From IMG/VR virus record IMGVR_UViG_3300020477_000150, positions 1 through 22,102 of that record: DNA of 22,102 nt; one strand, 5' to 3'. Numbering within the stretch: the stretch's first letter is position 1; each line of letters begins with the position of its first letter. Below are positions 6,798-13,349 of this stretch, one piece after another. Source of the DNA: a virus. The translations under genes were made by a program, and so were the position numbers. A model generated the notes under the pieces. The model saw only the letters and a list, made by a program, of their open reading frames with translations, did not search any database and was not told the origin of the DNA.

Positions 6798-8006
6798 ATG
6801 TTCAGCAATAATTCTTCCACACCATCAGAGTTCTTCAGTAGCAAAAAAGAGTATGATAAAATCTTTCCAGTTGCTCCAGAAAACAGAATTTATGATATTT
6901 GGTACAAAAGACCTTATTTTGGCAAAATAGACACAAAGGGTATCGCTGTATATCCAAAAGAAGAGTTTCTTGCCCCTCTGGATGTGAAAAAACAGTTTAA
7001 GGCTTTGAACTTTGTTGCCGAGGCGTTTTCTGATTTGCAAACATTTATACAAAGAGCAAAAGATAGAAATACATTCCCAACTGACTTCTTAGATGATTTT
7101 TCTCCCAAAAGAGCGTGGAAGTCGCTACCAGTGGAATATGACAATTATTTTGAAGATTACATTTTTAATCCTTTTTTAAATGAATACTTAGTAGGCAAAA
7201 AGATTGATTCGTTCGCAACATTCACTAGAGAGTATTTGAGGTTTGTCAGAACCGTAGCTCCTGATATTTCCATCACCCAAAATGAGTTTATAGTCAGTAG
7301 TGATTGTACCAATAAGATTTCAGGGCTTGTCATCGATCTGGTTGCCGACGATCATGGGGATAATAACCATAAAGTTAAAAAATATTTAGAAAAGTTTGAG
7401 TACTTGAACTTCATTGGCTCCTGCCGTCGTTTTGGTTTTAGACTAAATAAGCACGCCCCATGGCAACTTATTGCAGATTTAACAACCTTGAAACTTCCAA
7501 GCGGTGACGCAAACCCAATGCTGGATTATGCCAAAAAACACGAGGTCTATCTTGAAGAGAATCACTTGTTTGACAAATGTTATTACGCTGCCTCCCACGT
7601 TGATTATGAGAACTTTAAAAGATATCTCTATATTCTCTATACGAGCCACTATTCAGTAAACTCAACATATGACAAAATAAGCGTTCGCCTAAAGTCGGTA
7701 AAATATGGCTCCCCAATTTTTTCAGATTATGAAACAAAACTTATTAAAGAACAGCCTGTGGAGGTAGTACCAAAAACTTATCAGGAGTTTGAAGCTAGAT
7801 ACGGGGAAGCGTATTTTTTAAAGTTGTATTTCCGTGTGAGATTGATAGAAAACGAGAAAGAAGAGAGGTACAGCGACCTTGTTAAAAACGTCGTTGACTA
7901 CTATGGTTTGAAGGACAAAGAACATGCTTTAAAATATATTGATTTAAAGCTAATCAATTCAAAGATATACAAAAAAGATAGTGAAGAGATTTCTTTTTTT
8001 CCTTGA
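6798..8006 (+). CDS. Unknown protein at the end of the tail block, probable virion component
   Basis: 402 residues, rich in aromatic residues (Tyr, Phe) and Lys/Asp, with no signal peptide or membrane span and no motif I recognise. It opens MFSNNSSTPSEFF, a polar N-terminus often seen in baseplate and connector proteins of T4-like phages. The repeated aromatic segments (FEDYIFNPFLNEYL, KRYLYILYTSHYS) suggest a compact alpha/beta fold. The start is ATG 6798, with AAGGA at 6780-6784 a long 13 bases upstream. It is the last gene before the replication block, and a promoter overlaps its stop. A structural role (baseplate or tail sheath accessory) is inferred from placement and the lack of enzyme motifs. 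Confidence 0.55.
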   Translation: MFSNNSSTPSEFFSSKKEYDKIFPVAPENRIYDIWYKRPYFGKIDTKGIAVYPKEEFLAPLDVKKQFKALNFVAEAFSDLQTFIQRAKDRNTFPTDFLDDFSPKRAWKSLPVEYDNYFEDYIFNPFLNEYLVGKKIDSFATFTREYLRFVRTVAPDISITQNEFIVSSDCTNKISGLVIDLVADDHGDNNHKVKKYLEKFEYLNFIGSCRRFGFRLNKHAPWQLIADLTTLKLPSGDANPMLDYAKKHEVYLEENHLFDKCYYAASHVDYENFKRYLYILYTSHYSVNSTYDKISVRLKSVKYGSPIFSDYETKLIKEQPVEVVPKTYQEFEARYGEAYFLKLYFRVRLIENEKEERYSDLVKNVVDYYGLKDKEHALKYIDLKLINSKIYKKDSEEISFFP

Positions 8007-8037: not shown

Positions 8038-9219
8038 ATGCTATTTCAAACGTTTGACGAGAAAAAAGACTGTTTTATGGTTTTTAGAGATGAGAGATTC
8101 TCTAAACACATAACATCGGAATGTACCAAAACATGGTCATATGCGACTTATCTAAAGGAGCAGGACATAGACTATGCGAATCTTTTTAATTCCGGTAAAT
8201 CCCTAGAAGAAGCTTGTTCCGATGACCAAAAAAGGGAGTTAGAACAGGCCCAAGCAAGAATCAAAGCGGTGTTAAAATCTGCCGCATCAAGTGGCTTGGA
8301 CCTAAAAGATGTATGCATGTATGACTTGATCCCAGAACACATGCTGAGAACTTGGGCACAAGTTAAAAATAATATTTGTAATTATGTTTTCGAGAACAAC
8401 CCCAAACCAGAAAACTACGACCTCCTATTAAAAGTGGAGAAGATGATCACGGAGATCAAGTTCCAGCCTTTAGAAATTGACCCTGAAGAAATTGTTATAA
8501 CCAATGTACAAGACAAAAATACATACGAAACATTGGAACAATGCGATCGATTTATTTCATATGACCAATTCAAAACGAAGACGGGTCGCCTGAGCACAAA
8601 GAAAAATTCATTTCCAGTCATGACTCTGGCCAAGAAATACCGTAATGTTCTAAAGCCTGATAATGATTGGCTTTTTGAAATAGATTTCAATGCTTGCGAA
8701 CTAAGAGTGGCCTTAGCCCTCCTTGGAGAAGCTCAACCAGAAGAAGACCTTCATGACTGGAACCTTCATAACGTATTTGTTAGGTCAAAAGATCGCGAAA
8801 ATGCTAAAAAAAGGATATTCTCTTGGCTCTATAACCCAAAAAGCAGTGAGGACAGGGTTGGGAAGATTTACGACCGAGATAAGCTCAAAACTTTGCATTT
8901 TATGAAAGATAGAGTAAAAACTGTTTTTGGTAGAGAAATTCAGTGCGACGAAGACCATGCGGTAAGCTATATTATTCAGTCTACCGCCGCTGATCTGCTC
9001 TTTGAACAGATGTACAAAGTTTGGGAAATGCTAGATGGTAGCAAAAGCTTTATTAAATTCTGTAATCATGACTCTGTTATAATAGATTTTTCAGAAAAAG
9101 ATCAATTCATGATAAATGACATAAAACATGCGTTTAGTCAAACCCGCTTTGGCAAATTTAAAGTAAACTGCAGTGCCGGTCGAAATTGGCTTGACATGCA
9201 AAAGGCTTTTATAAACTAA
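8038..9219 (+). CDS. Compact family A (Pol I-type) DNA polymerase domain
   Basis: 393 residues carrying the polymerase landmarks of family A in the right order and spacing. TGRLS is at 182-186 (Taq/Klenow thumb-palm motif). Motif A is D216-FNAC-E221-L-R223. The O-helix pattern R253-x3-K257-x3-F261-x3-Y265 has Asn in place of the usual Gly after Tyr. A QSTAADLL palm helix follows, and motif C is N343-H344-D345-S346, with Ser where most members have Glu. Both metal-binding Asp residues (D216, D345) are kept. There is no 3'-5' exonuclease domain, and the stretch between the O-helix and the QSTAAD helix is much shorter than in Klenow. The first 170 residues must serve as a reduced thumb. A separate 5'-3' exonuclease lies at 13403-14377 and a DnaE polymerase at 20671, so a gap-filling or primer-replacement role is plausible. 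Start ATG 8038 has no ribosome site. Confidence 0.82.
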   Translation: MLFQTFDEKKDCFMVFRDERFSKHITSECTKTWSYATYLKEQDIDYANLFNSGKSLEEACSDDQKRELEQAQARIKAVLKSAASSGLDLKDVCMYDLIPEHMLRTWAQVKNNICNYVFENNPKPENYDLLLKVEKMITEIKFQPLEIDPEEIVITNVQDKNTYETLEQCDRFISYDQFKTKTGRLSTKKNSFPVMTLAKKYRNVLKPDNDWLFEIDFNACELRVALALLGEAQPEEDLHDWNLHNVFVRSKDRENAKKRIFSWLYNPKSSEDRVGKIYDRDKLKTLHFMKDRVKTVFGREIQCDEDHAVSYIIQSTAADLLFEQMYKVWEMLDGSKSFIKFCNHDSVIIDFSEKDQFMINDIKHAFSQTRFGKFKVNCSAGRNWLDMQKAFIN

Positions 9220-10064
9220 TGCAGACTATAATTGGACTAGGCAAAGCAGGGTGTAACATCGCGGACTGTTTCAAATTATACCCAGAGTACGATGTCTTAA
9301 AAATTGATGTTGGACTTAAGAAAACTAAAAAAACTTTAGGCTTGAAAGAACAGCCAACACCGGAACTTTATGAAGAAAAGATTCCGAGAACGCTGAATAA
9401 GTTTCTAGAAAACGTTAATGAAGAAACGTTATTTATTACAAGCTGTGGTTCGGTTTCAAGTGCCTCTTTGAGAATTCTTGAAAAAATCAAGGATAAAACA
9501 AAAATCACTGTGATGTATATTATCCCCAGTCAGGAGGGGTTGTCAGATATTCAAAAATTGCAAAACAATACTTTATTCAACGTACTTCAGCAGTTTGCAA
9601 GGTCAACGCTTTTTGAAAAAATTATTTTGCTTGACAATAGTAAGATATCTGATATAATAGGCCCTGTTCCAATATTAAACTATTGGGAAAGTATAAATCA
9701 GATGATTGCTTCAACTTATCACATGATCAATGTTTTTGAACACAGTATGCCTGTTTTTACGACGTTTACAAAGCGCGTCAAGACAGCACGCATGTGTACA
9801 ATTGGATTTGATAAATTTGACGAGGAGGAAGAAAAAAGCTTTTTTTCCCTTGACATTCCAAGAGAAAAAAGGTATTATTATGCAATACCTCATAGTGTTC
9901 TGGAACAGGATTCTATGTTGATGAATAAAATTAAAGGACAGGTTAGGGACTCGATAGAACATGATAGGATGAAAGTGGGATACGCAGTGTACCCCACAGA
10001 ATACGATCAAACATATATCTATTGGGAAAGTAACAGTTCGTTAATACAAAAATTAGTATCTTAA
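9219..10064 (+). CDS. Divergent FtsZ/tubulin-superfamily protein
   Basis: 281 residues; the ATG shares one base with the preceding polymerase stop. Landmarks of the tubulin/FtsZ fold appear in order. The first strand and loop are IIGLGKAGCNIADCF (4-18), like the G-x-G-x-A-G-x-N of FtsZ/CetZ. A strand TLFITSCG (70-77) leads into SVSSAS, where FtsZ has GGGTGTG. Next come a strand VMYIIPS, then IILLDNSKI (135-143), matching the 'vIPND+L' ribose/base-contact strand. A helix with MIASTYHMINVF and a strand MPVFTTF match the FtsZ 'GLINVDFAD' region. ARMCTIGFDKF (190-200) matches 'amiGiG'. The glycine-rich phosphate loop is degraded, so GTP binding or hydrolysis may be altered or absent. Known relatives position phage DNA (PhuZ), segregate plasmids (TubZ) or divide cells (FtsZ); the role here is unknown. 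The assignment is by motif order only. Confidence 0.68.
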   Translation: MQTIIGLGKAGCNIADCFKLYPEYDVLKIDVGLKKTKKTLGLKEQPTPELYEEKIPRTLNKFLENVNEETLFITSCGSVSSASLRILEKIKDKTKITVMYIIPSQEGLSDIQKLQNNTLFNVLQQFARSTLFEKIILLDNSKISDIIGPVPILNYWESINQMIASTYHMINVFEHSMPVFTTFTKRVKTARMCTIGFDKFDEEEEKSFFSLDIPREKRYYYAIPHSVLEQDSMLMNKIKGQVRDSIEHDRMKVGYAVYPTEYDQTYIYWESNSSLIQKLVS

Positions 10065-10105: not shown

Positions 10106-10849
10106 ATGGCTATTGATATGGAAAAAATGCGAGCCCGACAAGTGGCATTGAAAAACAACGGAAATGGCGGCTCTAACCGCTTTTGGCGTCCTCAAGACGG
10201 AGAACAAACGATTCGTATTGTATGTTCTTCTGATGGAGACCCCTTCCGTGATTATTGGTTCCACTACAATGTTGGTGACCAACCCGGCTTTCTGAGCCCC
10301 AAGCGTAATTTTGGAGAGGATTGTCCTCTTGATAATTATGTGAAACAGCTCTGGAAGGAGGGTAGTGAAGAGTCCAAGCGAGTTGCGAAGAAGCTTGGTG
10401 CTCGGCAACGCTTTTTTGCTCCCGTAATTGTACGAGGAGAAGAGAGCGAAGGAGTAAAGGTTTGGGGGTTCGGTAAGCGAACTTACGAAACGCTTTTGGG
10501 GCTTGTTTTGAATCCAGAGTATGGCGACATTACAGATCCAGAAACGGGCACGGATTTGGTTATTGGCTACGGAAAGCCTGCTGGCGCTTCCTTTCCGGAA
10601 ACCAAGATTACCCCTCGCCGCAAGTCGTCACCTCTTCACAAGGATGCCGAACGGGTACTTGAGTTGATGGAAGATGTTCCAGATTTTGAAGAGGTCTTTG
10701 AATCTGGACGCAAGACGGTCCAAGAGGTTGAGGATATTCTCGCTGCATACCTAAATAGCGAAGAACCGTCAGAGGAAGTAACCACAAGTTCCACTGGCAA
10801 TGTAAACGGAAATAGCGTAGACAAGGCTTTTAATGAGCTTCTAGGTTAG
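10106..10849 (+). CDS. gp32: T4 gp32-like single-stranded DNA-binding protein
   Basis: 247 residues. The N-terminus carries a basic stretch (MRARQVALKNN), comparable to the cooperativity region of gp32. An OB-fold core follows: NRFWRPQDGEQTIRIV, then WFHYNVGD, FLSPKRNFGEDCP, RQRFFAPVIVRG and VKVWGFGKRTYETLL. The C-terminus is acidic (EEPSEE) and ends VDKAFNELLG, the kind of tail gp32 uses to contact polymerase, helicase loader and recombinase. T4 gp32 binds zinc through one His and three Cys; only one Cys (in GEDCP) is present in the matching region, so the zinc site appears lost. AAGGAG at 10091-10096 is a strong ribosome site, and a hairpin terminator closes the unit, in keeping with high expression. 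The gene follows the tubulin-like gene by 41 bases. Confidence 0.85.
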   Translation: MAIDMEKMRARQVALKNNGNGGSNRFWRPQDGEQTIRIVCSSDGDPFRDYWFHYNVGDQPGFLSPKRNFGEDCPLDNYVKQLWKEGSEESKRVAKKLGARQRFFAPVIVRGEESEGVKVWGFGKRTYETLLGLVLNPEYGDITDPETGTDLVIGYGKPAGASFPETKITPRRKSSPLHKDAERVLELMEDVPDFEEVFESGRKTVQEVEDILAAYLNSEEPSEEVTTSSTGNVNGNSVDKAFNELLG

Positions 10850-11481: not shown

Positions 11482-12594
11482 ATGGCTCGTAGAAAAGAAG
11501 TAAAAGCTGGCAAACTCAGTATAGAACAGATGCGACAGCTTATCAATAAAAAGGCTGGCATGCAGGTTGCTCATGACCTCAATGATGAAAATAATCCAAC
11601 TAATGTAACCGATTGGATCCCAACAGGATCTCGCTGGCTGGATAGTATTATTTGTCGCGGCAAGTTGTCTGGAATACCCGTAGGAAAGATAACAGAAATT
11701 GCAGGACTTGAGTCTAGTGGCAAATCATACATGGCGGCTCAAATTGCTGCAAATGCTCAAAAGAAAGGTATTGATGTTGTTTACTTTGACTCTGAGTCCG
11801 CATTGGATAATTCTTTCTTAGAGCGCTCCGGATGTGACGCAAGTAGAATTCTTTATGTTCAGGCAACCAATGTCGAATTTGTGTTAGAAACTATTGAAGA
11901 ATTATTAAAGTCAAATGACAATAGAATGCTATTCATTTGGGATAGTCTAGCCCTAACTCCATCAATTTCAGATGTCGAGGGGGATTTTAACCCACAGTCA
12001 ACAATGGCAGTTAAAGCGCGCATTTTGTCAAAAGGTATGTCCAAACTACTTGTTTCCATCGCAAATACACAATCAACGTTGCTAGTTTTAAACCAGCTGA
12101 AAGCGAATATCACTCGCTCCCCCTCTGAGGCCCTTACGACACCGTATATGACACCGGGCGGTAAAACTCTTATTTACTCGTATTCATTGCGCATTTGGTT
12201 AACCAGACCAAAAGCAAAGGCATCTTACGTTTATGACGATAAAGATTATCGTATTGGGAACACCGTAAAAGTAAAACTTGAAAAATCACGTTTTGGTTCA
12301 CAAGGCCGCCAATGTCAATTCAAAATTCTTTGGGGTGACAAGGTTGGAGTTCAAGACGAAGAAAGCTGGTTTGACGCAATTCAGAGTTCGGATTCATTAA
12401 AGCGCTCAGGTGCATGGTATGAATTAGTTTTTGAAGACGGAACAACGGAAAAGTTCCAGTCTGCCAGATGGATGGAGAAGCTCGAAGACTCCAAGTTTAA
12501 AGGAAGAATCCTTCAGATCATGGATGAGGAAATCATTAGAAAGTTTGACGAGCGTACTGGAAACGCTGCAGATTTTTACGATAAAGAAGAATAA
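11482..12594 (+). CDS. uvsX: UvsX/RecA-type recombinase
   Basis: 370 residues. Walker A is G75-LESSGKS (75-82) and Walker B is MLFIWDS with D154. The segment LLVLNQLKANI plus the following SPSEALTTPYMTPGGKTL is the L2/DNA-binding region, where strand ATPases of the RecA/UvsX group keep an NQ.....PGG pattern. UvsX forms filaments on ssDNA, pairs homologous DNA and drives recombination-dependent replication, working with gp32 and the helicase also present here. The N-terminal 50 residues form the oligomerisation region, including DWIPTGSRWLD ahead of the ATPase core. The length is near that of T4 UvsX (391). GGGAGA precedes the ATG. The stop overlaps an ATG at 12594 that I do not take as the next gene's start. 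Confidence 0.93.
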   Translation: MARRKEVKAGKLSIEQMRQLINKKAGMQVAHDLNDENNPTNVTDWIPTGSRWLDSIICRGKLSGIPVGKITEIAGLESSGKSYMAAQIAANAQKKGIDVVYFDSESALDNSFLERSGCDASRILYVQATNVEFVLETIEELLKSNDNRMLFIWDSLALTPSISDVEGDFNPQSTMAVKARILSKGMSKLLVSIANTQSTLLVLNQLKANITRSPSEALTTPYMTPGGKTLIYSYSLRIWLTRPKAKASYVYDDKDYRIGNTVKVKLEKSRFGSQGRQCQFKILWGDKVGVQDEESWFDAIQSSDSLKRSGAWYELVFEDGTTEKFQSARWMEKLEDSKFKGRILQIMDEEIIRKFDERTGNAADFYDKEE

Positions 12595-12659
12595 TGGTCC
12601 TTAAAAAGCATTTATATAGTGAAATGACTATTTATAATGTAATTTGCAGGAGTCTTTTT

Positions 12660-13349
12660 ATGAAAATCACAGCGTCACGAGTTAAAGAGCTTATTAAAGA
12701 AGAAATTGAGAAGTTTTTACTAGAAGAGAAATTTGACTTTTCTGGTCAAAGTTATAAGTCTGTAGCCAAAGCAACGCGGTCTGCACTACGCAAGAAAGGC
12801 ATCAAAGGTGGCTCAGTTCTGTCTGGACTAAAAAAGCTATCTTACAATGATCCTCTTCGTAAAGCCTATCGCAAGTGGTATAGCGATAGAGGCAAGACAC
12901 CAACCGTGACAGATCCAAAAACAAAGAAAAGAGCTAAAGTTGAAAAGGTTCCCACGCCACGGGCCACAACAGCTGCCCAGAGGGCTGCCGCTAAGAAAAA
13001 GAAGGATGCTGCCAAAAAGAAGGGAGACAAGAGAATCGCAGGTTACAAGGCCGACAAAGCAGCCGCAGAAAAGCCCCAAAACCTTGGCACCGGAGTGGCA
13101 AAAAAGCCACGCAAAGTTGAAAAGGTTCCCACGCCACGGGCCACAACAGCTGCCCAGAGGGCTGCCGCTAAGAAAAAGAAGGATGCTGACAAAGAAAAGT
13201 CCGACGCGCGCATTGCAAAATTTAAAGCGGATAAAGCTGCCGCCGAGAAAGCCGCAGCCGCTAATAAAAAGAAGGATGACAAGGCGGTGACTAATCTTGA
13301 AAGCCTTCAGAAAAAAATTGAGGCTCTTGTAAGAGAAGCTTTAAAATAA
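12660..13349 (+). CDS. Lys/Ala-rich basic protein with internal 59-residue repeat
   Basis: 229 residues from ATG 12660, which has AGGAG at 12648-12652. The frame also opens upstream at ATG 12594, but that 22-codon extension has no ribosome site and looks non-coding. The first 20 residues (MKITASRVKELIKEEIEKFL) match a leader common in marine phage proteins, a short amphipathic helix with a 'LK..I.EEI...L' pattern. Residues about 35-75 are a small folded part. The remainder is a repeated Lys/Ala/Arg tract, KVEKVPTPRATTAAQRAAA followed by KKKKDA, occurring twice 59 codons apart and resembling histone H1-like tails. The end is an amphipathic helix (LQKKIEALVREAL). A role in binding DNA or RNA is inferred from charge; a scaffolding or packaging protein is an alternative. 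Confidence 0.65.
   Translation: MKITASRVKELIKEEIEKFLLEEKFDFSGQSYKSVAKATRSALRKKGIKGGSVLSGLKKLSYNDPLRKAYRKWYSDRGKTPTVTDPKTKKRAKVEKVPTPRATTAAQRAAAKKKKDAAKKKGDKRIAGYKADKAAAEKPQNLGTGVAKKPRKVEKVPTPRATTAAQRAAAKKKKDADKEKSDARIAKFKADKAAAEKAAAANKKKDDKAVTNLESLQKKIEALVREALK
12936..13011 (+). repeat. Perfect 76-base direct repeat, copy 1
   Basis: Identical base for base to 13113-13188, lying 177 bases (59 codons) upstream in the same gene and frame. It encodes KVEKVPTPRATTAAQRAAA plus KKKKDA. The remaining 101 bases of each 177-base unit have diverged. Confidence 0.9.
13113..13188 (+). repeat. Perfect 76-base direct repeat, copy 2
   Basis: Second copy of the 12936-13011 repeat. Synonymous sites are also identical, so the duplication or a conversion event is recent. 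Recombination between the copies would delete 59 residues without breaking the frame. Confidence 0.9.

Follow-up and report, generated by a model that had tools for sequence, protein, structure and literature searches.

Most of what is known about phage tubulins comes from giant phages that form a nucleus and from TubZ partition systems, in which DNA is moved by filaments driven by GTP. The present locus, in a 22,102-nucleotide stretch of viral DNA (IMG/VR record IMGVR_UViG_3300020477_000150; hereafter the window), raises the question of what a protein with this fold might do when it is encoded among the replication genes of a T4-type phage and its GTPase site has degenerated. The gene occupies 9219..10064 on the plus strand, starts with ATG and encodes 281 residues. 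Its start codon overlaps the TAA stop of the preceding family A DNA polymerase gene by one base (TAATG); a preliminary description of this DNA had reported both the reading frame and the overlap, and the coordinates bear them out. One-base stop/start overlaps of this kind are usually taken as translational coupling. The frame is a real gene under strong constraint: against two relatives, both 87% identical (L002 and L003), its dN/dS is 0.057 and 0.067, near that of the gp32 gene. Searches of IMG/VR recovered 223-347 relatives of the protein, the upper figure being a minimum; together with the low dN/dS and a set of invariant glycines (see below), these numbers mean that the likeness within the family is not due to chance.

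The fold and the sequence profiles agree, and we accordingly consider homology to FtsZ, beyond a mere likeness, to be supported. An AlphaFold2 model from an alignment of 37 family members (pLDDT 93.3, pTM 0.91) gave 684 Foldseek matches in the PDB with E < 0.001, of which the best 50 are TubZ or FtsZ without exception (E-values starting at 3e-13; query-based TM-scores of 0.66-0.74), with Bacillus TubZ at the top (E = 3.2e-13). Among predicted viral structures, a phage FtsZ ranks first (A0A6J5RW92 in BFVD, annotated as 'FtsZ Cell division GTPase', from an uncultured Caudovirales phage; TM-score on the query 0.80); it has 452 residues as against 281 and is followed by entries named 'cell division protein' and 'tubulin'. 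When 99 non-redundant family members were compared with 22 FtsZ sequences in hhalign, residues 3-182 aligned at E = 1.5e-4 (probability 51%), with T1, T4, T6, H7 and T7 all in register, whereas the controls run against the family profile gave 0.21 for UvsX, 0.47 for gp32, 0.48 for a neighboring 402-residue protein and 0.084 for the polymerase. As a single-sequence query, phiKZ gp39 aligned with the family profile only over residues 157-246 (E = 0.041).

The preliminary description had proposed a tubulin/FtsZ-like identity from a series of short strings, and had looked to a predicted structure and to profile searches for confirmation. The identity is upheld by the structure search, and all the strings quoted (GLGKAGCN, TLFITSCG, SVSSAS, ILLDNSK, INVF, MPVFTTF, MCTIGF) are present, those within the FtsZ alignment at the positions given to them; MCTIGF is indeed a strand in the model (E192-199) but falls outside that alignment. 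The profile searches were divided: the profile-profile comparison is significant and keeps the loops in register, but the window protein scores 16.3 bits with PF00091 (E = 0.012) as against a curated gathering cut-off of 33. The best PF00091 value among family members (E = 1.9e-4) likewise does not reach the cut-off, and this Pfam model by itself is insufficient to reveal the homology. More generally, no family member passes a curated Pfam cut-off, NCBIfam returns only ftsZ for one member (E = 0.063), and sequence searches of the PDB give no useful match. In PHROG, the window protein has no match better than E = 0.1, and 37 members show weak matches spread over unnamed families (at best E = 2.7e-4, in 6/37). 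The model and its structural matches point to the usual architecture of an N-terminal Rossmann domain, H7 and an activation domain. However, H8 and H9, the helices that in FtsZ lie between T7 and strand S7 and between S7 and S8, have no counterpart in the model, and its last strand (E266-273) is followed by no helix, linker, conserved peptide or tail. The predicted protein is thus compact, with a nucleotide-binding domain, H7 and a trimmed activation domain that lacks H8, H9 and the tail.

The alignments also outline a nucleotide pocket. The FtsZ profile places the T1 loop, GLGKAGCN, at residues 6-13 (9234..9257, plus strand), with G6, G8 and G11 invariant in 99 non-redundant relatives (less than 80% identical to each other), on which all the conservation counts are based. 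Two asparagines, which from tubulin and FtsZ structures we take to be the guanine contacts (beta-tubulin N206 and N228), are each found in 95/99: N140 in T6 (9636..9638, plus strand), where LLDN aligns with VIPN of FtsZ, and N160 in helix H7 (9696..9698, plus strand), which aligns with the H7 Asn of FtsZ and is lost only along with N140. At the position of the phosphate-binding T4 loop, the window protein has SCGSVS (residues 75-80; 9441..9458, plus strand), and hhalign sets SCGSVSSAS onto GGGTGTGAS of FtsZ; the signature GGGTG(S/T)G occurs in 0/99 relatives. The usual form in the family is GGSGx[IV]SGASL, while the clade of the window has SCGx[IV]SGASL, one residue shorter, through a single event that the tree assigns to a 27-member clade (support 0.996). 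The T7 position, HMINVFEHSM (residues 168-177; 9720..9749, plus strand), lacks the Asp of the FtsZ motif N-x-D-F-A-D, with MINV-FEHS aligned onto FVNRDFADL, and the family has no conserved acid at positions 170-179 to match the catalytic acid of NxDxxD/E. T3 is shortened relative to FtsZ. The degraded phosphate loop that had been noticed at the outset is real, and the catalytic acid of T7 is missing as well in every member. To judge from these motifs, the base-binding end of the pocket is kept, while the phosphate-loop signature and the residues for splitting GTP are lost.

The exceptions to this conservation bear on whether the pocket is used. N140 and N160 are both absent in the same four relatives (L226, L197, L204 and L232), which represent two events on the tree. 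The remaining 95 relatives have 63 conserved positions, and of these all four have changed at A10 (to S/T, in T1), G77 (to E/D, in T4), L108, N140 (T6) and N160 (H7). In FtsZ, these sequence-distant residues of T1, T4, T6 and H7 converge around the nucleotide. The p-values for the joint loss (2.7e-7 and 1.3e-6) ignore relatedness, and two events are the honest count. The pattern is a concerted loss of a single pocket. As residues so distant went together, the pocket is probably in use in the other 95 relatives, and we read this as evidence that it binds something in them. At the same time, since two lineages did without it, nucleotide binding is dispensable for the role of the protein.

The gene is embedded in a replication module with a stereotyped order. 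Upstream lie a conserved 402-residue protein (6798..8006, plus strand) and a short family A polymerase (PolA) of 393 residues with motifs A, B and C and no exonuclease domain (8038..9219, plus strand); downstream are a gp32-like single-strand DNA-binding protein (10106..10849, plus strand) and a UvsX/RecA-like recombinase (11482..12594, plus strand). UvsX had been placed two genes away from the tubulin-like gene; in fact, three frames intervene, namely gp32 and two of 92 and 103 residues. Beyond UvsX follow a 5'-3' exonuclease, a DnaB-type helicase and a ribonucleotide reductase, the latter two identified from their own sequence in the window, which ends at the start of a DnaE-type polymerase. 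The loci include those of a search seeded with PolA, in which presence of the tubulin-like gene was no criterion. Over all loci together, it follows the polymerase in 216/216; 215 of these have the gene, and in the remaining one (L202) the gene's beginning is seen before the contig end cuts it. Where contigs are long enough, the tubulin-like gene follows PolA in 154/154, gp32 follows it in 153/153 and UvsX follows gp32 in 130/130; these loci partly overlap and many were retrieved via the tubulin-like gene itself, and the same order holds in 56/56 non-redundant loci with room for it. The 402-residue gene is directly 5' of PolA in every testable locus (133/133 in one count, 151/151 in another), and the model of its product (pLDDT 89.6) has strong matches only to three unnamed viral proteins. 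A search for a Rosetta-stone fusion of the polymerase with the tubulin-like gene found none, and the long contigs contain no further tubulin above threshold.

Several features of these loci are recorded here in their own right. At some of them (L193, L218, L233 and L207), a small frame lies between PolA and the tubulin-like gene; it begins YNKLVRD(R/K)IP and resembles MazG-type pyrophosphohydrolases. The window frame at 12594-13349 encodes a protein rich in lysine and alanine with a repeated block, KVEKVPTPRATTAAQRAAAKKKKDA, and contains internally a basic peptide, MK[IL]T[KR]xxLKxLIKEE, that in similar form opens otherwise unlike frames (L023:5754, L017:3981, L234:3018, L067:2572, L033:3351 and L304:13425). 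These peptides might have a common targeting role, for instance in capsid packaging. The short, exonuclease-less PolA also coexists with a DnaE-type polymerase in the same phages.

The carriers are uncultivated T4-type phages from marine and freshwater sources, with IMG/VR contigs of up to 187 kb. This assignment comes from long contigs of the relatives, as the window ends before gp23: the T4-type gp23 major capsid protein and a terminase are each present in 12/12 long contigs tested, a DnaE homologue in 10/12 (frames of 979-1160 residues) and a family B polymerase in none of the 12. On one 185-kb contig (L241; G001:C1:140411-141883), unlike the others, the DnaE match crosses one TAG and one TAA, possibly an interruption or an assembly error. 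Annotated isolate phages yielded no relatives of the tubulin-like protein, and one relative used as a query (L011) matched only itself. In the species-level prokaryote genome set a single relative was found, in a WOR-3 metagenome-assembled genome (L251, CP070664.1); no other cellular genome has the module, and here UvsX is cut and followed by genes on the opposite strand, so that the copy may be a chimera of the assembly or an insertion in decay. As the sole cellular match, with its truncated UvsX, may be chimeric, we do not claim WOR-3 as a host and assign none.

The terminase of one long contig is closest to that of Flavobacterium phage immuto (45% identity), and the Immutovirus isolates, sisters of the carriers, have the module without the tubulin-like gene. 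In immuto it comprises PolA, two small unrelated frames, gp32, RecA, an exonuclease and DnaB, and its first 50 kb gave no match to tubulin; the idea that the two small frames are a reduced tubulin finds no support. A short polymerase lies near gp32-uvsX in immuto, Mel-JY01 and LR756508, and none of the genes between matches the tubulin profile; immuto and LR756508 keep short PolA, gp32 and UvsX with no intervening tubulin-like gene. As the sisters have the module minus this gene, their polymerase does not need it, which weakens the notion of a polymerase dependent on the tubulin-like protein. The link to PolA, as seen in gene order, is one of position and no proof of interaction. Being fixed in the carriers and absent from the immuto module, the gene is best described as a clade-specific core gene. 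The polymerase itself, of about 395 residues in the window and its relatives, has DFNACELR in motif A and HDSV in motif C, beside motif B; in the homologues of immuto, Mel-JY01 and LR756508, these are altered to DFDGYHLR and YDAF.

What, then, might the protein do? We posit, with about equal weight for and against, that it is a pseudo-tubulin that binds guanine nucleotide without hydrolyzing it and serves phage replication. The genes of short PolA, the tubulin-like protein, gp32 and UvsX are arranged as one operon, and their products would form a replication apparatus of which the tubulin-like protein would be a nucleotide-gated or purely structural accessory, binding guanine nucleotide with no tubulin hydrolysis cycle. 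The role in replication is suggested by the location in the module and the gp32-like constraint, although operon position by itself is no demonstration of function. The T7 loop of FtsZ and TubZ reaches the nucleotide held by the neighboring subunit, for which it provides the catalytic acid (PMC3678025, PMC10333351); as this acid is missing, the protein would not make dynamic head-to-tail filaments. From the sequences, absence of hydrolysis is well supported, and absence of polymerization is something we infer, since filaments can arise without hydrolysis. The narrower proposal, that the tubulin fold here lies outside the cytoskeleton as a guanine-nucleotide-gated, non-polymerizing subunit of a viral replisome with short family A polymerase and gp32, we put forward only tentatively.

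The main rival holds that the protein is a poison or decoy of host FtsZ, which would use a single retained FtsZ-like interface to cap the host protein or assemble together with it, and so stop division during infection. Its fold and N-terminal domain are like those of FtsZ, loss of T7 and H8 would yield a capping subunit, and unrelated phage proteins such as Kil, Icd and Gp0.4 act on FtsZ (PMC3961180, PMC11897509, PMC13423816). However, typical host-takeover genes are variable, whereas this one is core, syntenic, constrained like gp32 and located inside the replication module, and we regard the decoy as unlikely. Retention of T1 and the guanine contacts, in a fold that TubZ and PhuZ use for DNA-organizing filaments, would also suit filaments, static or capped by a partner, that place or organize phage DNA and owe any dynamics to a partner rather than to their own GTPase. 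This is quite unlikely, given that the T7 Asp, H8 and the C-terminal H11 and tail of PhuZ/TubZ assembly (PMC3678025) are missing in the model and the alignment, and that the carriers are T4-type by gp23, UvsX and gp32, not phiKZ-like. The concerted conservation of the pocket and the adjacent MazG-like gene of some relatives might instead bespeak a small-molecule or nucleotide-pool function, in which the Rossmann domain would sense guanine nucleotides, or bind them as an enzyme, outside both cytoskeleton and replisome; but no constellation of catalytic residues was identified outside the pocket and the MazG-like insert is limited to some loci, making this improbable. Hardly credible is a different Rossmann-like protein with convergent loops: the sub-threshold PF00091 score and the absence of a good PHROG match for the window protein would fit it, but it is refuted by the structure search, with TubZ/FtsZ matches spanning the whole chain, and by the in-register FtsZ profile alignment in which the controls fail.

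Several features set the family apart from the closest known systems. With FtsZ it shares the fold, the T1 loop, the T6 Asn, H7 and the order of elements; in contrast to FtsZ, it lacks GGGTGTG, the T7 Asp, H8, H9 and the C-terminal linker and tail, and has a shorter T3. With TubZ of Bacillus plasmids and a Clostridium phage and PhuZ of phiKZ-like phages it has in common a tubulin fold on a mobile element. However, PhuZ and TubZ have the catalytic T7 Asp, H11 and an assembly tail (PMC3678025), all of which are missing here from the model and the alignment, and the carriers belong to another phage lineage with another gene context. FtsZl1 and FtsZl2, divergent families of the FtsZ superfamily found by distant-similarity methods (Makarova and Koonin 2010, PMC2875224), kept GGGTG(S/T)G, and this loop helped to find one of them; as the present family lacks it, motif searches miss it. 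Among the open-license papers on PhuZ/TubZ and FtsZl1/FtsZl2 (PMC2875224, PMC7824862, PMC10299810) we found no description of this previously unnamed family, which has several hundred homologues and is core to one clade. Its members form a natural series, with a GGSG pocket, a shortened SCG pocket or no pocket, in which the need for each part of the fold could be tested. In this large family, fold and base-binding half of the pocket are kept and the parts for hydrolysis and assembly discarded, and it would show that the tubulin fold is able to serve without the GTPase cycle.
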